Shown here piece by piece: positions 26,861 to 38,912 of a DNA stretch of 64,000 bases. Every line of letters starts with the position of its first letter. The stretch's first letter is position 1. Origin of the DNA: Microbacterium capsulatum. Lineage in GTDB: Bacteria > Actinomycetota > Actinomycetes > Actinomycetales > Microbacteriaceae. The notes below the pieces were generated by a model. It was not told the origin of the DNA, made no database searches, and saw nothing but the letters and a program-made list of their open reading frames with translations. Both the position numbers and the translations under genes were made by a program. The stretch is from NCBI RefSeq assembly GCF_030865425.1, contig NZ_JAVFCB010000002.1, positions 62,001 to 126,000 on the forward strand, given 5' to 3'.

Positions 26861-27351
26861 TGACGGTCCGCGAGATCCGCCTGTTCGGCGACCCGGTGCT
26901 GCGCACGGTCTGCGCGCCGATCGAGACCATCGACGACGGCGTGCGCGCCCTCGTCGCCGACCTCGTCGACAGCGTCGAGCTGCCGGGCCGGGCGGGCGTC
27001 GCCGCTCCGCAGATCGGAGTCTCGCTGCGCGCGTTCAGCTACAACATCGACGGCGACATCGGCTATGTGCTGAACCCGGTCCTCGTCGAGGTGCGCGGCG
27101 AGCCCGTGCCCACGGGCGAGGGCTGCCTGTCGGTTCCCGGTCTCTGGCACGAGGCGCTGCGTTATCCGTGGGCGCGCGTCGAGGGGATCGACCTGGACGG
27201 CGAACCGGTCGAGCTGGAGGGCGAAGGACTGCTCGCGCAGGCGCTGCAGCACGAGACCGATCACCTCGACGGCAAGGTCTATCTCTCCCGTCTGGATCCG
27301 GCGACCCGCAAGGTCGCGATGCGCGAGGTCCGCGAGAGCTCCTGGTTCTGA
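26860..27351 (+). CDS. def: Peptide deformylase
   Basis: Metallo-hydrolase that removes the formyl group from new proteins. The 163-residue product has all three motifs: [11 protein letters not shown] (motif I), EGCLSVPG with the metal cysteine (motif II) and QHETDHLDG with the two metal histidines and catalytic glutamate (motif III). The start overlaps the upstream ATPase stop by one base. Transcription runs into a repeat-and-hairpin region and toward the convergent fadD15. Confidence 0.95.
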
Positions 27352-27355
27352 CACC

Positions 27356-27546
27356 CTTCCGCCGGGGTCGTGAGCGAGGACGCCGGAGGCGACCGAGACG
27401 AACTTCCGCCGGGGTCGTTCAGCGAGGACGCCGGAGGCGACCGAGACGAAATTCCGCCGGGGTCGTTGAGCGAGGACGCCGGACGCGGCCGAGACGAACT
27501 TCCGCCGGGGTCGTTGAGCGAGGACGCCGGAGGCGACCGAGACGAA
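27356..27546. repeat. Four tandem copies of a 47-48 bp intergenic repeat
   Basis: The unit runs from TTCCGCCGGGGTCGTTGAGC through CGAGGACGCCGGAGGCGACC to GAGACGAA; copies begin near 27357, 27404, 27452 and 27500. Copy 1 is one base shorter and copy 3 has a few substitutions. Because the period is 48, one frame stays open and would read a 16-residue repeat (SEDAGGDRDE plus LPPGS), but no start signal or family supports a protein. A related GTTGAGCGAGCGCAGCGAG element lies after the DAHP synthase gene near 38965. Confidence 0.85.
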
Positions 27547-27580
27547 ACGCGGGTTCCCGCAGGACACCGCGTTTCGTCTC
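27539..27580. terminator. Hairpin between def and fadD15
   Basis: GAGACGAAACGCGG (27539-27552) pairs perfectly with CCGCGTTTCGTCTC (27567-27580) across a 14-base loop, at the end of the tandem repeat and between convergent genes. A bidirectional terminator is likely. Confidence 0.65.
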
Positions 27581-27626
27581 GCGCCTCGCTGCGCTCGGGG
27601 CTCGCTCGACGACACCGGGCGAACGC

Positions 27627-29453
27627 TCAGCCCAGTGGGACCGTCGTCGTCGCGGTGGTCTCGTTGTAGATCTCGGCGATCTGCGGGGCGAAGTCCTTCA
27701 GGATCACGTTGCGCTTGATCGACATCTTCGGGGTCAGGTGCCCGCTCGCCTCGGTCCACTCGCTCGGCAGGATCGCGAACTTGCGGATCGACTCGGCGCG
27801 GGAGACCCGGTCGTTCGCGGTGTCGATCGCGCGCTGCACCTCGGCGCGCACGGCGTCGTTCGTCGCCGCGGCGGCCAGCGACATGTCGGCGGGCAGGCCG
27901 TTGTTCGCGAGCCAGCTCGGCAGCATCTCCGGGTCGAGGGTGACCAGCGCCGAGATGAACGGCTTCGCATCGCCCACCACGACCACCTGACCCACGATCG
28001 GGTTGGCGCGGATCGGATCCTCGAGGGCGGCGGGGGAGACGTTCTTGCCGCCGGCGGTGACGATGATCTCCTTCTTCCGGCCCGTGATCGTGAGGAAGCC
28101 CTCGTCGTCGAACGAGCCGAGGTCGCCGGTGCGGAACCAGCCGTCATGGAACGCGTCCGCGGTCGCCTCGGGGTTGTTCCAGTACTCCGCGAAGACGTTG
28201 ACGCCGCGGACCTCGATCTCGCCGTCGTCGGCAAGGCGGATGCCGACGCCGGGCAGGGCGGGGCCGACCGTGCCGATCTTGGACTTGTGCGCGACGTTCA
28301 CGGTCGCCGGGGCCGTGGTCTCGGTCAGGCCGTAGCCCTCCAGGATCACCACGCCGAGGCTGTGGAAGAAGTGCCCCAGGCGTGCGCCGAGCGGCGCGGA
28401 TCCCGAGATCGCGTACGTCACATTGCCGCCCATCGCCTCGCGCAGCTTGGAGTACACGAGCCGGTCGAACAGGGCGAACCTGATCTTCATCCCGAACGGG
28501 ATCTTCGCACCCTCCTCGAGCAGGCGGGAGTGCTCGATCGCGGTGGCCGCGGCCGCGCGGAAGATCTTGCCCTTGCCACCGGACTCGGCCTTCTGCTCCG
28601 CCGAGTTGTAGACCTTCTCGAACACGCGCGGCACCGCGAGCAGGAAGGTCGGCTTGAAGGATCCGAGCGCCGGCAGCAGCTGCTTGGTGTCGGGCTGGTG
28701 ACCGGTGCGGACGCCAGCGTGGATGTCCAGGATCGAGATGAACCGGGCGAACACGTGCGCGGTCGTGATGAACAGGACGGTCGAGGCGCCCGGGGTCGAC
28801 ACGACGTCGTCGAGAGACTTCGCGGCGTTGCGCGACAGCTCGACGAAGTTGCTGTGCGTGAGCACGCAGCCCTTGGGGCGGCCGGTCGAGCCGGACGTGT
28901 AGATGAGCGTGGCGATGTCGGCGCCGTTCGCGATGCTGCGGCGACGCTCGATCTCCTCGTCCGCGACGTCGGCGCCCTGTGCGGTGAGGTGCTCGATCGC
29001 ACCGAGGTGCATCTGCCACACCTCGCGGACGAGGGGGAGGTCGCCGCGCACCTCGTCGAAGCGCGCGAAATGCTCGGGCGACTCGACCATCAGCGCGGTC
29101 GCGCCGGAGTCCTCCAGGATCCACTGGATCTGCGAGGGCGAGCTGGTCTCGTAGATCGGCACCATCACCGCGCCGGCGTAGAACAGTGCGAAGTCGACGA
29201 GTGTCCACTCGTAGGTGGTGCGGGCGAGGAAGCCGACCTTCTCGCCGGGCTGTACGCCGGCGGCGGCGAAGCCCTTCGCGAGCGCAACCACGGCGGCACG
29301 GAAGTCGCTCGCGGCGATGTCGCGCCAGCCCGCGCTGTCCGGCACGGAGAACAGGGCGAGGTTGGGGGTCTTCGCGACCCGCTGTTCGAGGAGGTCGGTG
29401 ATGTTGTCCTCGGGCGCGGCGGGGACGATCGCGGGGACTTCGAACTGGATCAC
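27627..29453 (-). CDS. fadD15: Long-chain acyl-CoA synthetase (FadD15-like)
   Basis: A 608-residue AMP-forming fatty acyl-CoA synthetase that activates long-chain fatty acids. The P-loop LIYTSGSTGRPKG is at residues 183-195, GYGLTETTAP is the A5-type motif, and TGDLGSFDDEGFLTITGRKKEIIVTAGGKNVSP covers the hinge and adenylate-binding motifs. The start is GTG at 29453 with AAGGAG five bases upstream. It is divergent from plsC, so fatty-acid activation and phospholipid acylation genes sit side by side, as in Mycobacterium (Rv2187/Rv2182c). Confidence 0.93.
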   Translation of the reverse strand: MIQFEVPAIVPAAPEDNITDLLEQRVAKTPNLALFSVPDSAGWRDIAASDFRAAVVALAKGFAAAGVQPGEKVGFLARTTYEWTLVDFALFYAGAVMVPIYETSSPSQIQWILEDSGATALMVESPEHFARFDEVRGDLPLVREVWQMHLGAIEHLTAQGADVADEEIERRRSIANGADIATLIYTSGSTGRPKGCVLTHSNFVELSRNAAKSLDDVVSTPGASTVLFITTAHVFARFISILDIHAGVRTGHQPDTKQLLPALGSFKPTFLLAVPRVFEKVYNSAEQKAESGGKGKIFRAAAATAIEHSRLLEEGAKIPFGMKIRFALFDRLVYSKLREAMGGNVTYAISGSAPLGARLGHFFHSLGVVILEGYGLTETTAPATVNVAHKSKIGTVGPALPGVGIRLADDGEIEVRGVNVFAEYWNNPEATADAFHDGWFRTGDLGSFDDEGFLTITGRKKEIIVTAGGKNVSPAALEDPIRANPIVGQVVVVGDAKPFISALVTLDPEMLPSWLANNGLPADMSLAAAATNDAVRAEVQRAIDTANDRVSRAESIRKFAILPSEWTEASGHLTPKMSIKRNVILKDFAPQIAEIYNETTATTTVPLG

Positions 29454-29624
29454 GGCATCTCCTTCGGTACCGGACGGGTACGGGCTTGTCAGGAGTCTAT
29501 GCCACGCGGCGCCTGGGGAGACGGCCTCTACGGTGAGATCCAGTCGCAGAAAGTGTGAAACTGCGTCGCATGTCGCGGAAGTCGGCTCTCGTGCCGCGGA
29601 ACGCCGGGGGATAGACTGCGGGCG

Positions 29625-30335
29625 ATGATCTACTGGTTCATGAAGTACATCGCCATCGGCCCTCTGGTGAAGGCGATCTTCCGGCCGTGGATCGTGGGGC
29701 GCTCGAACGTCCCGACCTCGGGTGCGGCGATCATGGCGAGCAATCACCTGTCCTTCTCCGACTCGATCTTCCTGCCGCTCATGCTGGACCGGAAGATGTC
29801 GTTCCTCGCGAAGAGCGACTACTTCACCGGCCGGGGGATCAAGGGCTGGGCGACCCGGATGTTCATGAAAGGGACCGGCCAGCTGCCGATCGACCGCTCG
29901 GGCGGCAAGGCCTCGGAGGCATCCCTGAACACCGGGCTCACCGTGCTCGGACGCGGCGACCTGCTCGGCATCTACCCCGAGGGCACACGCAGCCCCGACG
30001 GCAAGCTGTACCGCGGCCGCACCGGCATCGCGCGGATGGCGCTCGAGGCGAAGGTCCCGGTCGTGCCGGTCGTGATGGTGGACACGGACGTCGCGATGCC
30101 GACGGGGCAGCGGATCCCGAAGATCATGCGCGTGGGGATGGTCGTCGGCGAGCCCCTGGACTTCTCCCGCTACGCCGGGATGGAGAACGACCGCTACATC
30201 CTCCGCTCCGTCACGGACGAGATCATGGTGGCCCTGCAGCGCCTCGGCGAGCAGACCTACGAGGACGTCTACGCCTCCACGGTGAAGGAGCGGCTGACCA
30301 CCGCGGGCGGCAAGGCCGTCACACACCGCGGTTGA
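29625..30335 (+). CDS. plsC: 1-acyl-sn-glycerol-3-phosphate acyltransferase family protein
   Basis: A 236-residue membrane-associated acyltransferase of phospholipid synthesis. The catalytic NHxxxxD motif is NHLSFSD (H41, D46), and the glycerophosphate-binding motif is IYPEGTRSPDG. RTGIARMALEAKVPVVPV and the downstream block are normal for the family. It corresponds to Rv2182c in the conserved mycobacterial order. In that order the DAHP synthase gene lies close by, but here seven kilobases of transporter and catabolic genes intervene. Confidence 0.9.
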   Translation: MIYWFMKYIAIGPLVKAIFRPWIVGRSNVPTSGAAIMASNHLSFSDSIFLPLMLDRKMSFLAKSDYFTGRGIKGWATRMFMKGTGQLPIDRSGGKASEASLNTGLTVLGRGDLLGIYPEGTRSPDGKLYRGRTGIARMALEAKVPVVPVVMVDTDVAMPTGQRIPKIMRVGMVVGEPLDFSRYAGMENDRYILRSVTDEIMVALQRLGEQTYEDVYASTVKERLTTAGGKAVTHRG

Positions 30336-30412
30336 GGACTCGGCGGGGCGGAGCCCCGGGCGCCAGAGCACCGGTGAGCGCGGAGGCGTTGGGGAACAGA
30401 GCGGGAGGATCC

Positions 30413-31444
30413 GTGCAGGAGAGCGAATCGGGCAGGCGGGTGACGCTCGCCGATGTCGCCGAATTGTCCGGAGTGCACACAGCGACCGTCTCTCGAGCGT
30501 TGAATCCGGCCGCGCGCCTGAAGGTCGCAGCGGAGACTGTGCGCCGGGTGGAAGCGGCGGCGCATGCGCTGGGTTACGTCCCTAACGTCGTTGCGCGAGG
30601 GCTGCGCAAGCGCGCATCGATGACGGTCGGAGTCGTCATCCCCGATCTCACCAATCCGTTCTTCCCTCCCGTCGTCCGCGGCATCGAGGACTATCTCCAG
30701 GTACATGGCTACACGGCCCTGCTCGCCAACACCGACGAGGACGACGATGCTGAGGAAGCCCTGGTCACTTCCTTGCTGGAGAGGCGTGTCGACGGACTGA
30801 TCATGGCGACCGGACGGCACGGCGACCGACCGGTGCTGCGGAGACTGCAGGCCTCGGGAGTGCGGACGGTCATGGTCAACCGCGACGCGAGTCCTCTGCC
30901 GTTCCCCCTGGTCACGGGCGATGACGCCCTCGGGATCGCGGCTGCAGTGGCGCATCTGCACGATCTTGGACATCGCGACATCGTTCACATCGCGGGCCCC
31001 CTGGACCTGTCGACGAGTCTCGTGCGTGCGGACGCGTTCACGGCCGCGGTGCGGGCTCGCCGTGGAATCCGCGGACGGGTGATCGAGGCCTCCGCTCTGA
31101 GCGTGATGGCGGGATCGGAGATCGCGCCGTTCCTGCTCGCGGATTCACCGCCGACCGCGGTCGTCGCGAGCAACGACCTCCTCGCCATCGGCGTGCTACG
31201 AGCGCTGAAGGCGCAGGGGCGCTCCTGTCCCGAGGACCTCGCGATCGTGGGGTTCAACGACATGCCTTTCGCGGAGGATCTCCAGCCGCCCCTGACGACC
31301 GTGCATGTCCCGGGGCAGGCGATGGGAACAGCGGCCGCACGATTGCTCCTCGACGCCCTTGCCGGGGATGCCCCGGGTGCGGGGGCTGTGGTTCTGCCGA
31401 CCTCGCTGATCGTGCGGGGATCCACGGGGCCCGTCCGACGCTGA
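30413..31444 (+). CDS. LacI-family transcriptional regulator
   Basis: A 343-residue repressor. The HTH and hinge occupy residues 9-65 (VTLADVAELSGVHTATVSRALN, then ARGLRKRASMTVGVVIPDL), followed by a periplasmic-binding-like domain with PTAVVASNDLLAIGVLRAL. The GTG at 30413 has GGGAGG four bases upstream; another GTG at 30374 is in frame. Two LacI-type operators just downstream, over the ABC operon promoter, are its probable targets. The inducer is unknown. It may be co-transcribed with plsC. Confidence 0.9.
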   Translation: MQESESGRRVTLADVAELSGVHTATVSRALNPAARLKVAAETVRRVEAAAHALGYVPNVVARGLRKRASMTVGVVIPDLTNPFFPPVVRGIEDYLQVHGYTALLANTDEDDDAEEALVTSLLERRVDGLIMATGRHGDRPVLRRLQASGVRTVMVNRDASPLPFPLVTGDDALGIAAAVAHLHDLGHRDIVHIAGPLDLSTSLVRADAFTAAVRARRGIRGRVIEASALSVMAGSEIAPFLLADSPPTAVVASNDLLAIGVLRALKAQGRSCPEDLAIVGFNDMPFAEDLQPPLTTVHVPGQAMGTAAARLLLDALAGDAPGAGAVVLPTSLIVRGSTGPVRR

Positions 31445-31448
31445 TCCC

Positions 31449-31514
31449 TTGACACCGCGGCGCGCTCGGGTCTTATATGGGTGCAATCGATTGTATTGCA
31501 ATCGATTGCACCCA
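31449..31514 (+). promoter_or_regulatory. Promoter and tandem LacI operators of the ABC-amidohydrolase operon
   Basis: A TTGACA -35 box is at 31449-31454; a TATAT-containing -10 region lies at 31473-31480. Directly downstream are two 14-bp LacI-type sites: TGCAATCGATTGTA (31482-31495) and TGCAATCGATTGCA (31497-31510), with central CG pairs 15 bp apart. Together they form a perfect 16-base inverted repeat (31478-31493 and 31499-31514) around five bases. Repressor bound here would cover the start of transcription. Confidence 0.85.
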
Positions 31515-31544
31515 GTTCCCTGATCTCAGCGAGGAGACCATCCG

Positions 31545-32621
31545 ATGGATTCGCCTTCCCCCGCGGTGTCCGTCCCCGGTGCGCGCCGGGGCACTGTCGC
31601 GTGGGCGAGATACCGGACCGAGATCCGGCTCCTCATCGCCGTCGTCCTTCTCGTGGCACTCTTCATCGTCCTGTTCCCGCAGCAGTTCGGGACCATGAGC
31701 AACGCGGGCAACGTTCTCCGTTATGCGTCCGTGCTGCTGGTAGTCGCGATCGGCCAGATGTTCGCGATCCTCGTGGGCGGATTCGACATCTCTGTCGGAG
31801 CCACGATGGGCCTCGCTTCGACAATCGGCGCGATGGCGATGCTCCAATACGGCACGGTCGCCGGGATCGCCGCGGGAATCGGCGTGGCAGCCGTGGTCGG
31901 GGTCGCCAACGGGATCCTCATCTCGCGGTACCGCGTCAGTCCCTTCATCGCGACCCTCGGCATGATGACATTCGTCGGCGGCCTGGCCAACTCCGTCAGC
32001 GGAGGGCGATCGGTGTTCGGACTGCCCGACTCGTTCGGATGGTTCGGGCGGTTCGACTGGGGTCCTCTGCCCTCCACTACCGGGCTCGCGATCTTCTGCG
32101 GCGCGGCCGCCTGGTTGCTGCTGAGCCGCACGAGGGCGGGCCTGAACATGTACGCGATCGGGGGCGGGCGCCCCACGGCCGTGCTCGCAGGCATACCGGT
32201 GATGCGCACCGAGGTCCTCGCGTACACCACGTGCAGCCTGTTCGCGGGGATCGCCGGCCTCATGCTCGCCTCTCGGGTGGTGATCGGCCAGGCGAGCCTC
32301 GGGTCGGGCTACGAGCTCGAATCCATCGCGACCGCCGTGATCGGCGGCGTGGCGATCGGCGGCGGTGTGGGCCGCATCCTCGGCGTGGTGCTCGGTGTCG
32401 GGCTGCTCAGCCTGATCACAACCGGGATGAACATCGCCGGTCTCTCCGAATTCGTGCAGCAGATGCTCACCGGCGTGGTGCTCATCGTCGCGGTTCTCAT
32501 CGACCGATTCCGCGGCCGCAGCATGCGAGGGCGTGAGCACCCGCAACCTCGCGCCGCCACGACGCCCACGGGCGGCCAGGACCCCGCAGTACCCGAACCG
32601 ATTGAAGTGAGGAAGCCATGA
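31545..32621 (+). CDS. ABC transporter permease, ribose/RbsC type
   Basis: A 358-residue inner-membrane permease with about ten hydrophobic segments. Family motifs are AIGQMFAILVGGFDISVGATMGLAS, VGVANGILISRYRVSPFIATLGMM, and GGVAIGGGVGRILGVVLGVGLL. The C-terminal 40 residues are cytoplasmic and Pro-rich. It is the first structural gene behind the LacI operators, has GAGGAG upstream, and overlaps the binding-protein gene by four bases. Unlike most rbs-type operons, the permease precedes the binding protein and ATPase. Confidence 0.92.
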   Translation: MDSPSPAVSVPGARRGTVAWARYRTEIRLLIAVVLLVALFIVLFPQQFGTMSNAGNVLRYASVLLVVAIGQMFAILVGGFDISVGATMGLASTIGAMAMLQYGTVAGIAAGIGVAAVVGVANGILISRYRVSPFIATLGMMTFVGGLANSVSGGRSVFGLPDSFGWFGRFDWGPLPSTTGLAIFCGAAAWLLLSRTRAGLNMYAIGGGRPTAVLAGIPVMRTEVLAYTTCSLFAGIAGLMLASRVVIGQASLGSGYELESIATAVIGGVAIGGGVGRILGVVLGVGLLSLITTGMNIAGLSEFVQQMLTGVVLIVAVLIDRFRGRSMRGREHPQPRAATTPTGGQDPAVPEPIEVRKP

Positions 32622-33670
32622 ACAAGTCCCGGATCGTGCTTGCCGTCGCGGTCGTCGCGACCGCCGTGTTCGTGCTCGACGGCTGCACGTCCGCGATCCC
32701 GGGTGGCGGGCCGACGTCGGCCGACAGCGCACTCGGCACATCGCTGAAGTGCGATGCTTCTCCCACTCAGCAGGAGTTGCTCGACTACAAGATCCCGCGC
32801 GCGAAGAAGAACTTCGACGTCACCTTGATGCAGGTCAGTTCTGCCGGGTACTACTACCAGGCGATCCAGCAAGGGGCGGAGGAGGCCGCGGCCAAAGCCG
32901 GCGTGCATCTGCAGTCGTACTCGGCCGACGGCTATGCATCGCCTGACCTGCAGCTGAAGCAGATCGGCGATGCGATTGCGCGCGGGACGAACGCGGTCGT
33001 CATGGCGCCATCCGACATCCAGGGGTCCGTGCCGGTGGTCACACGGGCCAGGGACGCAGGCCTACCGGTGGTGAACATCTCGTCCGAGGTCGCGAGCAAG
33101 GACGTCACCATGGTCATGCAGGACGACTACGCCTTCGGGCAGCTCGCCGCCGACCGCGTCGCGAAGGTCGTCGGAGCCAAGGGCGGCAAGGGGATCCTCA
33201 TCGCCGGCCCCGCGAATGCGACCTGGTCGCAACGTCGTACGAAGGGCTTCGAGGACCGGGTGGCGAAGATGTATCCGAACCTGAAGATCGTCGCCGCCCC
33301 GACGCAGAACGTGGATCCCGCCGCGGGTCTGAAGTCGTTCGACGACGCGGTCCAAGCAAATCCTGATATCTCGTGGATCTTCGCGGTCCACTACTACATC
33401 CTGCAGCCGGCATCGCTGCCGACCCAGTACAAAGGGAAGGTTTCTTACATTGCGGGCGGATACGAGCCCGACTCGATCACCGGTCTGAAGAACGGGACGA
33501 TGGACTCCGTCTTCGGCCTCGCTCCACGCTGGATGGGGATCCTCGGCGTCTCTTATGCGGTGGCGCAGCTGAACGGCGAAAAGCTGCCGCGCGTCACGTG
33601 CGTTCCGATCCCGCTGTTCACCGCGAAGGACATCGGCACGCCGTTCGCTGATGCCGAGATCATCCCGTGA
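32618..33670 (+). CDS. ABC transporter substrate-binding lipoprotein (sugar-binding type 1 fold)
   Basis: A 350-residue exported protein. Residues 1-22 form a signal peptide ending in LDGC, with C23 as the likely lipidated cysteine; the D at -2 is unusual for a lipobox. The mature part has the RbsB/periplasmic-binding fold, e.g. GYYYQAIQQGAEEAAAKAGV, ARGTNAVVMAPSD, GLPVVNISSEV. It binds the compound imported by the adjacent permease and ATPase. The ligand is unknown: gene context (deaminase-like hydrolase, RidA, no sugar kinase) suggests something other than a plain sugar. ATGA and GTGA overlaps join it to both neighbours. Confidence 0.9.
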   Translation: MNKSRIVLAVAVVATAVFVLDGCTSAIPGGGPTSADSALGTSLKCDASPTQQELLDYKIPRAKKNFDVTLMQVSSAGYYYQAIQQGAEEAAAKAGVHLQSYSADGYASPDLQLKQIGDAIARGTNAVVMAPSDIQGSVPVVTRARDAGLPVVNISSEVASKDVTMVMQDDYAFGQLAADRVAKVVGAKGGKGILIAGPANATWSQRRTKGFEDRVAKMYPNLKIVAAPTQNVDPAAGLKSFDDAVQANPDISWIFAVHYYILQPASLPTQYKGKVSYIAGGYEPDSITGLKNGTMDSVFGLAPRWMGILGVSYAVAQLNGEKLPRVTCVPIPLFTAKDIGTPFADAEIIP

Positions 33671-35184
33671 CGGTCCCCGCCGAACTTCAGGCGGTCGAGA
33701 TCGGCGTCGTCGGCGTCAGCAAGGCCTATCCCGGGGTCCGCGCGCTCGACAACGTGGACCTCCAGTTCAGGCCTGGCGAGATCCATTCGATCGTCGGCGA
33801 GAACGGGGCGGGTAAGTCGACCCTGGTGCGCATCCTCAGCGGCGTCGAGCACCCGACCAGCGGTTCGGTGATCGTGGACGGCACCGTCCGGCGTCTGCGC
33901 ACACCCGCCGCCGCCCGCCGGGCTGGGATCAGTCTTGTCCCGCAGGAGGCGCAGCTGATCCGGACGTTCAGCGTCGGCAGGAACATCCTCCTCGGCCGGC
34001 AGCACGCGTGGGTGCGCCGAGCGACCCTCACCGGGAGAGAGCGTGCGGTGGTGGCCGAAGCGCTCGTGCGGGTGGGAGCGTCCGGGATCAAGCCAGAGGA
34101 CCCGGCGTCCGCGCTCAGTGCGGCGGGTAACCGGCTCTGTCAGATCGCCGCGACGCTGATCGATCCGGGGCGACTGCTCATCCTCGACGAGCCGACGGCA
34201 GTGCTCGCCGACGCCGACGCCGAAATCCTCCTGGAGCGGCTGGAGAGTCTTCGTGAGGCGGGCATCAGCATCTTGTACGTCAGCCATCGCCTCAGCGAAG
34301 TGATCCGCCTTTCGGATCGCATCACTGTCCTCCGCGACGGGCGCATCGTCGGCTCCTTCGCTCGGGGCGAGGCGGATCGCGCACGCATCCTGCAGCTCAT
34401 GGCCAGACGGCAGGGCACCAGCGCCCCCGCTCGGGTCGAGGCGCCGGTCGATCTTGCTGCGGCAGTGCAGGTGCTGTCGGTGTCCGGACTCTCCTGCGCC
34501 GGCGCGTTCGAGGGAGTGGACTTCGTCGCCCGGGAGGGTGAGGTCGTCGGGATCGCTGGCATCCAGGGATCAGGGCACGGGAGGCTCCTCGACACGATCG
34601 CGGGCGCATGGAGCGCCGACCGAGGAACGGTGTCGGTCGACGGACGGGCGACGTCCGGCTCATTGTGGTCGGCTCTGCGCGCCGGGATCCGTCTCGTGCC
34701 GGAAGACCGTCGCGAGCGGGGCATCGTCGGCGCACAGTCGATCAGCGAGAACCTCTCGATCGGCTACGGCTCGCCGGGGCAGCGGCAGTGGTTCCGGTCG
34801 CGTGCAGCGGAGACGGCCAGGGCCCGGCACGCGATTTCCGAGTTCGGCGTCCGTGCCGCGTCGGCCGAGGTACCGCTGGAGACGCTGAGCGGAGGCAATC
34901 AGCAGAAGGTGGTCATCGCCCGTGTGCTCGCCAGCGGGCCGCGGGTCATGCTCCTGAGCGAACCCACGCAGGGCATCGACGTCCACGCGAAGGCCGAGAT
35001 CCTCCGGACCTTGCGATCCATCGCGCGAGAGCGGCGGATCGCCGTCGTGCTCGCCTCCAGCGAGTTCGAGGAGCTCATCGAGTACGCGGACACCATCCAT
35101 GTGATGCGCCGGGGACGGCTGCGAGTGAGCATGCCAGCGACCGACGCGACCTACGTCGACGTCCTGGAGGCCGCCGTCCCATGA
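33667..35184 (+). CDS. ABC transporter ATPase, double NBD (RbsA type)
   Basis: A 505-residue protein with two nucleotide-binding domains. NBD1 has Walker A GENGAGKST, Walker B LLILDEPTAVL and the switch VSHRL. NBD2 begins near residue 280 with the family's degenerate loop (GIAGIQGSGHG) and has a full signature LSGGNQQKVVIAR. Its Walker B reads LLSEPTQGID, with serine where the conserved aspartate is expected. NBD1's signature is also weak (LSAAGNRLCQIA). Start is GTG overlapping the binding-protein stop. Confidence 0.9.
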   Translation: MTVPAELQAVEIGVVGVSKAYPGVRALDNVDLQFRPGEIHSIVGENGAGKSTLVRILSGVEHPTSGSVIVDGTVRRLRTPAAARRAGISLVPQEAQLIRTFSVGRNILLGRQHAWVRRATLTGRERAVVAEALVRVGASGIKPEDPASALSAAGNRLCQIAATLIDPGRLLILDEPTAVLADADAEILLERLESLREAGISILYVSHRLSEVIRLSDRITVLRDGRIVGSFARGEADRARILQLMARRQGTSAPARVEAPVDLAAAVQVLSVSGLSCAGAFEGVDFVAREGEVVGIAGIQGSGHGRLLDTIAGAWSADRGTVSVDGRATSGSLWSALRAGIRLVPEDRRERGIVGAQSISENLSIGYGSPGQRQWFRSRAAETARARHAISEFGVRAASAEVPLETLSGGNQQKVVIARVLASGPRVMLLSEPTQGIDVHAKAEILRTLRSIARERRIAVVLASSEFEELIEYADTIHVMRRGRLRVSMPATDATYVDVLEAAVP

Positions 35185-35215
35185 ACCACGGTCAGACGAC
35201 ATGAAGGGAATCACG

Positions 35216-36997
35216 ATGAACGCGGAACAGGAAGTGGACGAGCGCCAGAAGGCGGCGCTCGTCGCGGCCGGTCGGGCGCCAGCCGACCGGGTGCTGACCG
35301 GGGCGCGGGTCGTCAACGTGTACACAGGAAGGATCTCCCGCGGCGACGTCGCGATCGCCGGCCCTCGTATCGCTGCGGTGGGGCATGTCGAGCACACCGT
35401 GGACAGCCGCACGGAGATCGTCGACTGCTCCGGGCTCTTCCTCGTCCCCGGCTTCATCGACAGCCATATCCATCTCGGCGGATCCCAGCTCACGATCCAG
35501 CGGCTCGCGGAGGTGCTCGTGCCGCACGGCACGGCGGCACTGTGCACCGACTTCTACGAGCTCGGCACGATCGGCGGCCTTGATGCGGTGCTCCACGAAC
35601 TGGAATCGTCCCGGGGGACAGGTGTCGACATCCTCCTCTCGCCTTTCGTCGCCGCGGTCCTCGGCATCGGGGACTTCGGCAACCTGGGTCGGTTCGGCGT
35701 CGACGACATGATCGCGCTCCTCGAGCACGATGACTGCGTGGAGCTACGCGAGTGGAACTGCTGGTCGGCGTGGCTGCCGATCGAGGATCAGCGTCGGGTC
35801 TATGAGACGGCGCTGCGCCGGCGCCGTACGATCGGCGGCCACCTCGAGGGGCTCGCCGGTCCCACTCTGCAGGCGTCCATCGCACTCGGGATCCGCTCCG
35901 AGCACGAGGCGGTGACCGCGCACGAGGCACTGGAACGAGTGGAACTCGGCGCGACGGTGCAGATCCGCGGCGGGTCCGCAGCGCGGGACTTCGCGGATCT
36001 CGTCCCCGCGATCACCGAACACGGTGCCGACCCGGGGTTGTTCAGCTTCTGCACCGACGAGCAGGAGCTCGCGTCCATGGCCGAGTCCGGGCACATCGAC
36101 CGGCTGGTGCGTCGTGCGATCCGGGAAGGTGTGCCCCCGATCGACGCCGTGCGGATGGCGACACTGAACGCGGCACGCGGCATCGGCGTCGACAACGACT
36201 ACGGATCGATCACACCCGGTCGGGTCGCTTCGATCGTGGCCGTCGAGGAGCTCGCTTCGCTGCCGATCGCTAAGGTGTTCAGCCGTGGCGCGCTCGCCGC
36301 CGAGGACGGGGCTTACCGGCTCGCGCCGCCACCAGCGCAGTACGGACCCGAAGCCCGGGAGTCGATCGTGATCCGCCGTCCGCTCACGCGCGACGACTTC
36401 CTGTTCGAGCTGCCCGACGGCGACATCGAGGTGCGCGTCATCGGCATCACACCCGGCCGGCTGGCCACCGAGGAACGCATCGAGACCGTTGCATTCCTCG
36501 ACGGGCGGCCCCAGGGTGCGGACGGCGTCGCGCGGATCGCCGTCATCGATCGGCATCTGGGCGGCCAGGAGCGCGCCCTCGGGCTCATTCGCGGGCTGGA
36601 CGTCGCAGACGGCGCTGTCGCGATGACGGCCAACCCGGGGATGATGAACCTGGTCGTCGTCGGGGTGGACGAGGACGACATGTGCCTGGCCGCTTCGCGC
36701 GTTGCCGAGTTGGGCGGCGGGTTCGCCGTGGCTGCGCACGGACGTATCCATGCCGAGGTGGCGCTGCCTATCCGTGGGATCGTCAGCGACGCTCCCTCGG
36801 GCGAAGTGGTCGAGCGCTGCATCGCCGTGGAGCATGCGATCCGCGACGCGATGGGCAGCCCGTTCGACGGTTTCATCAGCGCGGCGGGATTCGCCTGCCT
36901 CGCGGTGAGCATCCCCAGTCTGAAGATCACCTCCCGCGGTCTCGCCCGGGTGTCGCGCAGCGAACCCACCGAGGCCGTGCCCTTCCGCATTCGTTGA
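35216..36997 (+). CDS. Divergent adenine-deaminase-like amidohydrolase
   Basis: A 593-residue protein with the adenine deaminase layout: metallo-hydrolase barrel (residues 25-380) and the adenine deaminase C-terminal domain. Retained motifs are PGFIDSHIH, GGHLEGLAG, SEHEAVTAHEAL, the GGSAARDFADL segment, and CTDEQELASMAESGHIDRLVRRAI. Several family motifs are altered: HxESS reads HLGGS, DPHE reads DFYE, and AHDSHN reads ANPGMMN. Those changes include expected metal or substrate residues, so the substrate is probably not adenine. The ATG at 35216 has GAAGGGA seven bases upstream. It lies 31 bases after the ABC ATPase gene. Confidence 0.82.
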   Translation: MNAEQEVDERQKAALVAAGRAPADRVLTGARVVNVYTGRISRGDVAIAGPRIAAVGHVEHTVDSRTEIVDCSGLFLVPGFIDSHIHLGGSQLTIQRLAEVLVPHGTAALCTDFYELGTIGGLDAVLHELESSRGTGVDILLSPFVAAVLGIGDFGNLGRFGVDDMIALLEHDDCVELREWNCWSAWLPIEDQRRVYETALRRRRTIGGHLEGLAGPTLQASIALGIRSEHEAVTAHEALERVELGATVQIRGGSAARDFADLVPAITEHGADPGLFSFCTDEQELASMAESGHIDRLVRRAIREGVPPIDAVRMATLNAARGIGVDNDYGSITPGRVASIVAVEELASLPIAKVFSRGALAAEDGAYRLAPPPAQYGPEARESIVIRRPLTRDDFLFELPDGDIEVRVIGITPGRLATEERIETVAFLDGRPQGADGVARIAVIDRHLGGQERALGLIRGLDVADGAVAMTANPGMMNLVVVGVDEDDMCLAASRVAELGGGFAVAAHGRIHAEVALPIRGIVSDAPSGEVVERCIAVEHAIRDAMGSPFDGFISAAGFACLAVSIPSLKITSRGLARVSRSEPTEAVPFRIR

Positions 36998-37031
36998 TCA
37001 CCCGTCGCCGCACAGAACAGAGGAGTACACC

Positions 37032-37499
37032 ATGCCCGCCATCCCTGCACCGCATCGAGTCGGAAGCGCCGATGTCATCCACCACGACGGGTACGACGAG
37101 ACGATCGTTAGTCCGTTCGTCCCCGCCATCCGTACGGTGTCCGGGGCAAGGCTCGTCTTCGTGAGCGGTGTGACCGGTGCGCCCGTCTACCACGATCATC
37201 CTCACCGTCGGGAGGTGTTCGACACGATCCCCGCCGACATCGCGGGCCAGGTGGCGAACGCGTTCGCGCACCTGGATCTTGCGCTCGCCGCCGCGGGCGC
37301 ACGAAGGACGGACGTCGTCAACCTCGTCCGCTTCTTCACGGACGTGGATGCGGATCAGGACACCGTGAACCGTGTGCAATCGGAGTGGTTCGGTGGCCAC
37401 ATCCCGACGAGCACGTCGGTCGAGGTCACACGGCTGGCCACCGATCCGCGGCTGCGGCTGGAGATCCAAGCCATCGCGGCGGTGGGTGCAGGGGAGTGA
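37032..37499 (+). CDS. RidA/YjgF-family protein
   Basis: A 155-residue member of the RidA (YjgF/YER057c/UK114) family, which hydrolyses reactive enamines or imines released by amine-processing enzymes. Typical segments are VSGARLVFVSGVTG, ANAFAHLDLALAAAGARRTDVVNLVRFFTDV and LRLEIQAIAAVG. The arginine that defines active RidA (in PARS-VEV) is replaced: the sequence reads PTSTSVEV. It therefore belongs with the Rid subgroups of unknown activity. The AGAGGAG ribosome site and short gap make it the last gene of the transporter-amidohydrolase operon. Confidence 0.88.
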   Translation: MPAIPAPHRVGSADVIHHDGYDETIVSPFVPAIRTVSGARLVFVSGVTGAPVYHDHPHRREVFDTIPADIAGQVANAFAHLDLALAAAGARRTDVVNLVRFFTDVDADQDTVNRVQSEWFGGHIPTSTSVEVTRLATDPRLRLEIQAIAAVGAGE

Positions 37500-37577
37500 G
37501 GCCAGGTGGGTGTGACTCCGCCGTCACACACCGGCGCTGAGCGTCGGGGCCCTCCCGGCGCGCCCTAGGATGGGGGA

Positions 37578-38912
37578 ATGCCTCACCCCCTCGACCTCGA
37601 CTCGTGGCGCGCCCTTCCGATCAAGCAGCAGCCGCAGTGGCCCGACGCCGAGCGCGTCTCCGAGGTCTCCGCGCAGATCTCCGCGCTGCCCCCGCTGGTG
37701 TTCGCCGGCGAGGTCGACAACCTGCGCGAGCGGCTCGCCCGCGCCGCGTCCGGGAAGGCGTTCCTGCTGCAGGGCGGCGACTGCGCCGAGACGTTCGCCG
37801 GCGCCACCGCGGACCAGATCCGCAACCGCATCAAGACCGTGCTGCAGATGGCCGTCGTCCTCACGTACGGCGCGTCGATGCCGGTGGTCAAGATGGGGCG
37901 CATGGCCGGGCAGTTCGCCAAGCCGCGCTCGAGCGACACCGAGACCCGCGGTGACGTCACGCTGCCGGCCTACCGCGGCGACATCGTCAACGGCTACGAC
38001 TTCACCGAGGGCTCCCGCGAGGCCAACCCGGGCCGCCTGCTGCAGGGCTACCACACGGCCGCCTCGACCCTGAACCTCATCCGGGCGTTCACCCAGGGCG
38101 GTTTCGCGGACCTGCGTGAGGTGCACTCCTGGAACAAGGGCTTCGCGCAGAACCCCGCCAACCAGCGTTACGAGCGGATGGCCGCCGAGATCGACCGCGC
38201 CATCAAGTTCATGGAGGCCGCGGGCGCCGACTTCGACGAGCTCAAGCGCGTCGAGTTCTTCACCGGCCACGAGGGCCTGCTGATGGACTACGAGCGGCCG
38301 ATGACCCGCATCGACTCGCGGACCCTCACGCCCTACAACACCTCGGCGCACTTCCTCTGGATCGGCGAGCGCACGCGCGAGCTCGACGGCGCGCACGTCG
38401 ACTACTTCTCCAAGATTCGCAACCCGATCGGCGTTAAGCTCGGCCCGACCACGACGACCGACACCGCGCTCGCGCTCATCGACAAGCTCGACCCGAACCG
38501 CGAGCCCGGACGCCTCACCTTCATCACGCGCATGGGGGCCGGGAAGATCCGTGAAGCGCTCCCGCCGCTGCTGCAGGCCGTCAAGGACTCCGGCGCGCAG
38601 CCGCTGTGGGTCACCGACCCCATGCACGGCAACGGCATCACCACGCCGACCGGCTACAAGACCCGCCGCTTCGACGACGTGGTCGACGAGGTCCGCGGCT
38701 TCTTCGAGGCGCACCGCGCGGTCGGCACGTTCCCCGGCGGCATCCACGTGGAGCTCACCGGCGACGACGTCACCGAATGCCTGGGCGGATCCGAGCAGAT
38801 CGACGAGGCCGCTCTCGCGACCCGCTACGAGTCTCTGTGCGACCCGCGCCTGAACCACATGCAGTCGCTCGAGCTCGCGTTCCTCGTCGCCGAGGAGCTC
38901 GAGAAGCGCTGA
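37578..38912 (+). CDS. aroG: Class II 3-deoxy-7-phosphoheptulonate synthase
   Basis: First enzyme of the shikimate pathway (phosphoenolpyruvate plus erythrose 4-phosphate). The 444 residues match the class II, plant/mycobacterial type. Landmarks are FLLQGGDCAETF, KMGRMAGQFAKPRS, YHTAASTLNLIRAFTQGGFADL, GPTTTTD, FITRMGAGKIR, WVTDPMHGNG and GIHVELTGDDVTECLGG. In mycobacteria its orthologue Rv2178c is near the pknL/Rv2175c genes, as here. A hairpin follows the stop. Confidence 0.95.
   Translation: MPHPLDLDSWRALPIKQQPQWPDAERVSEVSAQISALPPLVFAGEVDNLRERLARAASGKAFLLQGGDCAETFAGATADQIRNRIKTVLQMAVVLTYGASMPVVKMGRMAGQFAKPRSSDTETRGDVTLPAYRGDIVNGYDFTEGSREANPGRLLQGYHTAASTLNLIRAFTQGGFADLREVHSWNKGFAQNPANQRYERMAAEIDRAIKFMEAAGADFDELKRVEFFTGHEGLLMDYERPMTRIDSRTLTPYNTSAHFLWIGERTRELDGAHVDYFSKIRNPIGVKLGPTTTTDTALALIDKLDPNREPGRLTFITRMGAGKIREALPPLLQAVKDSGAQPLWVTDPMHGNGITTPTGYKTRRFDDVVDEVRGFFEAHRAVGTFPGGIHVELTGDDVTECLGGSEQIDEAALATRYESLCDPRLNHMQSLELAFLVAEELEKR

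Follow-up and report, generated by a model that had tools for sequence, protein, structure and literature searches.

The 593-residue protein P0001, encoded at 35216–36997 on the forward strand of the 64,000-nucleotide stretch of Microbacterium capsulatum DNA analysed here (the window), is a real, conserved and probably active variant of the adenine-deaminase-like amidohydrolases. The reading that we favor, with a probability of roughly 0.7, is that P0001 is an active two-metal hydrolase with the adenine deaminase fold that acts on an imported nitrogen compound other than adenine. The first-pass annotation had likewise suggested that the protein may be a different hydrolase or deaminase, with the imported compound as its substrate. 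The idea of another activity fits the five-gene run conserved in a second organism, the operators unique to the operon and the family score below cut-off that are described below, while the word "imported" was drawn from gene order alone.

The gene lies in a run of six on the forward strand. The first encodes a LacI-family regulator of 343 residues with a probable GTG start (30413–31444; PF00356 and PF13377 on 30422–31444). It is followed by two LacI-type operators: TGCAATCGATTGTA at 31482–31495, with one mismatch to TGCAATCGATTGCA, and the perfect palindrome TGCAATCGATTGCA itself at 31497–31510, 15 bases after the first. Then come a CUT2-type (ribose-like) ABC permease (31545–32621; PF02653), a CUT2-type substrate-binding protein (32618–33670; PF13407), a CUT2-type double ABC ATPase (33667–35184; PF00005 in two stretches), P0001 (PF13382, PF01979 and PF07969) and a Rid-family protein, P0006 (37032–37499; PF01042). 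The binding protein is closest to ribose-type proteins. The nearest solved chains to it carry sugar-binding names, so the imported compound may be sugar-like, a point that counts against the reading we favor. The run is flanked upstream by what we take to be lipid-type genes and downstream by what we take to be a DAHP-synthase-like gene. Promoter and terminator scans of 30300–37650 found neither.

PF13382 (Adenine_deam_C) matches P0001 residues 416–581 with E = 5e-36, and the PF01979 match, at 68.2 bits with a gathering cut-off of 25, places the protein in the amidohydrolase superfamily. An AlphaFold2 model from 45 sequences has a mean pLDDT of 90.5 and a pTM of 0.92, with values below 50 at residues 184–187. 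VIA-align superposed the model on 3nqb_B with Z = 42.1 and an rmsd of 2.8 over 575 residues at 27% identity; the next fold families were NagA (Z 22.3), isoaspartyl dipeptidase (21.6) and enamidase (20.6). The adenine deaminase layout, C-terminal domain included, that had been read from the letters is borne out by the PF13382 match and this superposition, and the structure prediction that had been proposed as a check gave a confident model that superposes on adenine deaminase 3NQB, with the six metal ligands kept by alignment. By its sequence score, P0001 is not an adenine deaminase under the NCBI curated rule, since it reaches 320 bits against TIGR01178, below the equivalog cut-off of 472.5. 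The controls, E. coli AdeD (841) and all four canonical-motif proteins (573–612), pass. The homologue from Nocardioides soli (313) and the relatives at loci L084 (376), L085 (358) and L086 (331) also fall below the cut-off, as does one SEC-type protein (372).

Where adenine deaminases have HxHxE, DPHE and AHDxHN, P0001 reads HIHLG, DFYE and NPGMMN, within SHIHLGGS (residues 83–90), CTDFYE (110–115) and TANPGMMN (471–478). G88-G89 (35477–35482) stand in place of the Glu-Ser of HxHxES, D112-F-Y-E115 (35549–35560) in place of DPHE, and N473-PGMM-N478 (36632–36649) in place of the AHDSHN of the C-terminal domain. The first two replacements read exactly as originally described (HxESS to HLGGS, DPHE to DFYE); the third is real, with the six-for-six correspondence being NPGMMN rather than ANPGMMN. 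According to the accessible text on YerA (PMC12133300), its two metals, placed with AlphaFold 3, are held by His87, His89, Glu179 (bridging), His210, His231 and Asp283. These align with P0001 H84 and H86 (H84-I-H86, 35465–35473), E179 in ELREWN (35750–35752), H209 (35840–35842) in GGHLEG (207–212), H230 (35903–35905) in SEHE (228–231) and D281 (36056–36058) in CTDE (279–282), the last of which is also the general base by homology; the Arg251 equivalent is kept as well. Retention of the GGHLEG and SEHE histidines and of the CTDE aspartate, noted at first sight of the sequence, is confirmed by the alignment; the retained E179 and Arg251 equivalents went unmentioned there. As aligned, then, the catalytic metal site of P0001 is complete in its residues. 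The loss of several defining motifs, as the first-pass annotation put it, holds for the three replaced stretches, but all six catalytic metal ligands are in their usual places. The glycines for Glu-Ser, the Phe-Tyr pair and the Pro-Gly-Met-Met in place of the histidine loops could leave a pocket that is roomier and less polar.

These positions were compared in 167 COG1001 rows, a set that excludes the repeat loci L001, L084–L091, L117, L172, L174 and L175, matches spanning fewer than 300 residues and frames below 450 aa, and that still holds five near-duplicate pairs; the later L181 and L182 are of the IEY type. E179, H230 and D281 are invariant (167/167), and H84 and H86 are present in all 166 non-gap rows. 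The H209 position is His in 136 rows and Cys in 31, and the R251 position is Arg in 150. The Glu of HxHxE is missing solely in three GG-type and two YHS-type rows, out of 166 without a gap. The DPHE histidine and the second histidine of AHDxHN occur together in 115 rows and are missing together from the other 52; no row has one without the other, which suggests that they form one functional unit; we infer that this unit is the third-metal site of Atu4426. The six ligands are kept, with the other motifs partly or wholly replaced, in the window/N. soli pair, the YHS and IEY types and YerA, and the SEC type is changed further, with Cys for one metal ligand. Such losses are not confined to P0001: all three stretches are also replaced in YerA and in two YHS-type proteins, and two of the three in the SEC and IEY types.

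The N. soli homologue (L092) has 59% local identity to P0001 and 57.5% over 593 globally aligned positions, and 53 of 56 active-site motif residues are identical between the two; none of 20,000 random window placements reaches 53 identities (maximum 50), so the shared motif letters exceed what chance would give. The five genes from permease to Rid protein occur there in the same order, with identities of 62% for the permease, 68% for the binding protein, 53% for the ATPase, 59% for the Ade-like protein and 77% for the Rid-like protein. Immediately upstream of that operon, a 2-oxoacid dehydrogenase is represented by a fused E1 gene and an E2 gene; genes for an aldehyde dehydrogenase, a VOC protein and a GntR regulator lie farther away. 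Could P0001 nevertheless be a pseudoenzyme or a decaying gene? Three motifs otherwise conserved in the family deviate, and dN/dS between P0001 and the N. soli protein is about 0.5, a value made unreliable by codon bias. Set against this are the six ligands and Arg251, the near-identity of the motif residues at a much lower overall identity, the intact frame and an operon kept with its own operators. Decay was rejected on the motif conservation with N. soli, and we regard this explanation as extremely improbable; the original view that the gene is unlikely to be decaying is upheld by the motif residues, the five-gene run in N. soli and the operators.

Trees were made on chosen subsets of the alignment, 91 of the 167 rows and sets of 64 and 63 rows. 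The sister of P0001 is the N. soli protein, with a support of 100. This pair groups with L031 and two YHS-type proteins with SH-aLRT values of 90 (91 rows) and 97 (64 rows); the three GG rows by themselves, L031 and the window pair, receive 29 and 45, and when L031 is left out, the remaining four rows have no starred node of their own. A wider group of GG and YHS types is therefore likely but not certain, given these values, the long branches and the loss of the node without L031. Each of the SEC, IEY and YHS types is monophyletic (100). The canonical rows do not come together as a single clade in these trees, where three changes are needed. The COG1001 family tree, which had been proposed as a check, places P0001 with N. 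soli and then with L031 and the YHS-type proteins, near Ade-like proteins linked to CUT2 importers. We know of no activity, metal content or ligand for any GG or YHS member.

Close relatives occur patchily in the genomes sampled. A scan of genome contigs with P0001 as a single query found no relative; an alignment-based scan with P0001 and P0007 from L031 gave at least 590 stretches, at least 340 of which encode a relative, and the best 80 of the 340 were kept. At >50% identity over >200 residues, no further match was found in the genomes of 58 relatives or in 398 family, 396 order, 364 class and 396 phylum genomes, samples that overlap and include the host and in which, for these four ranks, three first-look candidates were scored per genome; among 118 genomes of the N. 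soli genus, only N. soli matched. The close type of binding protein (E up to 1e-40) occurs in 2 of 246 phylum genomes, the host and G593, in both of which an Ade-like gene is clustered with it; the G593 permease and binding protein are 54% and 46% identical to those of the window. Plasmid records were searched by tblastn with P0001 and its binding protein, with the relatives from L086 and L031 and with the Rid protein; among the best rows listed, nothing exceeded 60% identity, the Ade-like queries having matched 383 to 385 records. The GC3 of the six operon genes is 0.79–0.86 (LacI gene 0.788), compared with a mean of 0.92 (sd 0.04) in 37 other called frames of the window, five of which are also below 0.88 and from which frames starting at 27,000–30,400 were excluded. 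The lower GC3 and the patchy occurrence together suggest, though not strongly, that the operon was acquired from outside.

The adjacent LacI-family gene probably encodes the repressor of the operon. In the host genome of 3,988,377 bases, the only sites with zero or one mismatch to TGCAATCGATTGCA are the two operators before this operon. By count alone, a 12-base half pattern is no commoner in the window than in shuffled sequence, since the 4 matches with up to two mismatches are equalled in 31 of 100 shuffles; the case for the operators is made by the exact palindrome and its genome-wide uniqueness, not by the number of matches. A wider LacI regulon was considered and discounted, as just two further sites were found genome-wide, each with two mismatches: the one at C14 is flanked by genes for an oligopeptide-type binding protein and an ATPase, and the one at C11 is near another LacI gene. 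The cluster in G126 has eight operator-like matches, where 1.35 are expected and none of 200 shuffles has as many, and these include two sites in tandem, spaced by the 15-base step seen in the window. One operator-like site, a weak one (8 of 100 shuffles have as many), precedes the N. soli operon, and no LacI gene was found among the frames called around it; these two observations in N. soli stand against our preferred reading.

What kind of compound might be imported? A CUT2 permease profile scores above 50 bits in all four fetched GG/YHS loci besides the window and in 1 of 87 others (L106), a contrast that is inflated because the profile was built from the positive loci and the window, and in which the flanks vary in length. 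Two canonical loci, L132 and L173, score 37–44 bits against CUT2 permease profiles. At L084, the importer genes are on the other strand, and HyuA, HyuB, an RraA-like aldolase and an FAA hydrolase follow the Ade-like gene. The neighbours at L086 are an FAA-hydrolase-like protein, two OsmC-like proteins (one below the cut-off), two SDRs, an M24 protein and a cupin regulator. Within the favored reading, our tentative choice of substrate class, at somewhat less than even odds and by analogy, would be a cyclic amide, amidine or enamide, that is, an N-heterocycle, because the relatives' neighbours include an ATP-dependent hydantoinase/oxoprolinase pair, an RraA-like aldolase, FAA hydrolases and 2-oxoacid dehydrogenases. 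These neighbours belong to relatives of 33–34% identity, to N. soli and to a distant Rid cluster; of such genes, only the Rid-like one is present in the window.

FAA hydrolases, which occur at L084 and L086 and in the distant Rid cluster of Aminobacter, also enter into a different proposal, in which P0001 would open a ring by something other than simple hydrolysis, such as an iron-dependent oxygenolytic cleavage. The accessible text of PMC7356986 describes KpiC, a PF01979 protein, as an extradiol ring-cleaving enzyme acting on 3,4-dihydroxypyridine, with an FAA hydrolase in its cluster, a warning that oxygen-dependent ring cleavage, too, may fall to the amidohydrolase fold. Of the solved adenine deaminase, the forms 3T81 and 3T8L are iron bound. 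However, the same text puts KpiC closest to enamidase and apart from the adenine deaminases (PMC7356986), no FAA hydrolase or monooxygenase was found in the window operon, and P0001 keeps the full hydrolytic residue set. We consider ring opening of this kind to be very unlikely.

The Rid partner, P0006, is itself altered. It shares PF01042 with RidA/TdcF and RutC, with 36% identity to TdcF over 87 residues, but differs from them in having Ser at the Arg105 position and an extra YHDHPH motif (37188–37205, forward strand; alignment with TdcF). The accessible texts state that RidA and RutC need Arg105/104 and that tested Rid proteins without it had no enamine deaminase activity (PMC4433059, PMC8113886), and about 10% of RidA proteins are said to carry Ser at this position (PMC4433059). 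P0006 thus lacks the arginine that marks RidA. A scheme in which the amidohydrolase makes an enamine that RidA hydrolyses was considered and is weakened by the missing Arg105. Both the Ser and the YHDHPH motif are shared with the Rid proteins of N. soli and of G008, a genome of the same genus as the host; a more distant protein from Aminobacter sp. SR38 (34% identity to P0006) has Gly and YHQHPH. The G008 protein is 72% identical to P0006, and its gene lies between an Amidohydro_3 gene, which adjoins a LIV-type ABC importer, and an M24 gene. G008 yielded no COG1001 match of full length, an observation that stands against our preferred reading. In Aminobacter, the run that holds the Rid gene includes an FAA hydrolase and a CUT2-like importer, and another amidohydrolase lies a few genes further along. 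The Rid branch appears to accompany amidohydrolases of different kinds, and this is our main reason for regarding the operon as a catabolic cassette rather than a purine salvage unit. A more specific and rather doubtful idea is that of a new cassette of two altered enzymes, in which P0001 would open the ring of an imported N-heterocycle and the Arg105-less, histidine-bearing Rid protein would resolve the unstable product through a novel chemistry, possibly with the assistance of a metal. The ring opening in such a cassette could be hydrolytic, or with oxygen as reported for KpiC.

Our direct observations concern the residues, the fold in the model, how far the protein is conserved, the operon, and the operator sites and their uniqueness. 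From these, we infer the regulation, metal binding, catalysis, C–N hydrolysis and order of steps in the following mechanism for the two-metal hydrolase that we favor. The CUT2 (ribose-type) ABC transporter would import a small polar nitrogen compound, with the operon repressed by the LacI regulator encoded alongside. In the cytoplasm, metals bound on H84, H86, H209, H230 and D281, with E179 as the bridging ligand, would activate a water molecule, which would attack a C–N bond of the imported compound. D281 would serve as the general base, taking and giving the proton, and R251 may help to bind the compound. The Rid-like protein would then handle the product.

An active enzyme with these changes has a precedent in YerA, an N6-methyladenosine deaminase of COG1001 subgroup 2 according to the accessible text of PMC12133300. 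That text also describes a rough alignment of the Atu4426 ligands with those of YerA and gives the Asp the role of general base; it adds that YerA does not conserve the ligands that hold a third metal in Atu4426, and that YerA Phe91 is crucial. Judging from this precedent, activity can survive replacement of the three stretches, which is accompanied by a change of substrate. By position, Phe91 corresponds to the Glu of HxHxE, where P0001 has Gly88; the stretch around the YerA pocket residue Gln150 is gapped in the P0001 alignment, and the C-terminal domain of YerA aligns without AHDSHN. Part of a plasmid stretch, L183, is 75% identical to part of this domain and reads HAHPF and NDNLF about 1 kb upstream, which would presumably belong to the same gene.

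P0001 might then still be a purine deaminase, acting on adenine or, like YerA/Bh0637, on an N6-substituted adenine or adenosine, with the riboside imported by the ribose-type transporter. YerA has the six ligands and the same three changed stretches and is active in purine deamination, the binding protein has ribose-type nearest relatives, and the host genome holds no further TIGR01178 match at E 1e-15. However, Gly88 stands where YerA has its crucial Phe91, and the one Thermus YerA-type protein in the tree has no supported place beside P0001, although its branch is very long. Furthermore, the HyuAB, RraA, FAA hydrolase and 2-oxoacid dehydrogenase genes near the relatives have no obvious role in purine deamination. 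The six operon genes include no purine gene, whereas adenosine deaminase is present in both IEY and both lone-SEC loci, as found with queries from one locus each. A purine deaminase is therefore, in our estimate, unlikely, and the hydrolase of another nitrogen compound is preferred.

Genes of the P0001 kind are often automatically annotated as "adenine deaminase", yet COG1001 comprises several types in which the six ligands are kept and some or all of the three other motifs are replaced; the type found in the window goes together with a sugar-type importer and with a Rid protein not expected to act as RidA. If its substrate is found, P0001 would provide a worked example of how an adenine deaminase pocket is rebuilt, together with a function for this Rid branch. 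In the accessible literature on COG1001, including PMC13296781, we found no pointer to the P0001 variant, and in that on adenine deaminase, RidA, enamidase and CUT2 importers with an amidohydrolase or hydantoinase, the branch, the importer link and the altered Rid partner were not found.

How does P0001 compare with the systems that are known? With Atu4426 (PDB 3NQB, 3T81, 3T8L) and E. coli AdeD/YicP, it shares the full-length fold, PF13382, the six ligands and the Arg251 equivalent, but it is only 27% identical to 3nqb, has replaced the Glu, the Pro-His and both AHDSHN histidines, falls below the TIGR01178 cut-off and lies in a CUT2 importer operon without a purine gene. Enamidase (PDB 2VUN), which hydrolyses a cyclic enamide according to the accessible text of PMC7356986, a chemistry of the sort that we favor for P0001, shares the amidohydrolase barrel (Z 20.6 as given above), but by fold it ties with many other amidohydrolases and is likened to P0001 on fold alone. 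L031/L084 (G126, a Microbacteriaceae MAG), L052/L085 (G477) and L057/L086 (G593) have CUT2 importer genes nearby and have lost the Glu of HxHxE, as in the window/N. soli pair; they differ in their 33–35% identity to P0001, their other replacement letters and long branches, and, for L084 and L086, in the extra catabolic genes alongside. YerA (Bsu06560)/Bh0637, as described in the accessible text, likewise keeps the two-metal ligands and replaces the same three stretches, but with other letters (Phe91 instead of Gly88) and without a supported grouping with P0001 in the tree. The logic of P0001 is familiar from YerA, but its branch, the link to the importer and the altered Rid partner are without a counterpart in the literature searched.

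The motif YHxHPH is conserved in a branch of the Rid family that is without Arg105, the residue needed by tested RidA proteins. Members of this branch are encoded at 37032-37499 of the window, in the Nocardioides soli locus (L092:11792-12259), in locus L188 from a genome of the host's genus, G008 (L188:9771-10226), and in a further fetched locus (L189:8980-9405). The clusters that carry them hold amidohydrolases of differing kinds together with ABC importers. The G008 cluster (contig C1, 1513000-1532500) contains, besides the Rid gene, an Amidohydro_3 protein, a LIV-type ABC importer, two M24 proteins, and cupin regulators. Elsewhere in the host genome (L194, C14:250000-268000), three consecutive TRZ/ATZ-like amidohydrolase genes, recognised by eye, adjoin an oligopeptide-type ABC binding protein.

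A further Ade-like clade, the IEY type, has DPNG-like and NCPNMN-like motifs in place of DPHE and AHDSHN, respectively, and Met in place of Arg251 (16 rows counted). It occurs in the Microbacteriaceae, the family of the host, and in other actinobacteria (loci L002, L032-L038, L040, L041, L043, L044, L078, L079, L081, L082, L181, and L182). Adenosine deaminase is present in both of the IEY loci that were read with long flanks.

In the SEC type, a second COG1001 paralogue, the metal ligand His209 is replaced by Cys. This paralogue and a canonical adenine deaminase are found within one fetched stretch in 26 of the 91 loci examined (L102, L107, L108, L122, L137, L145, and 20 others).
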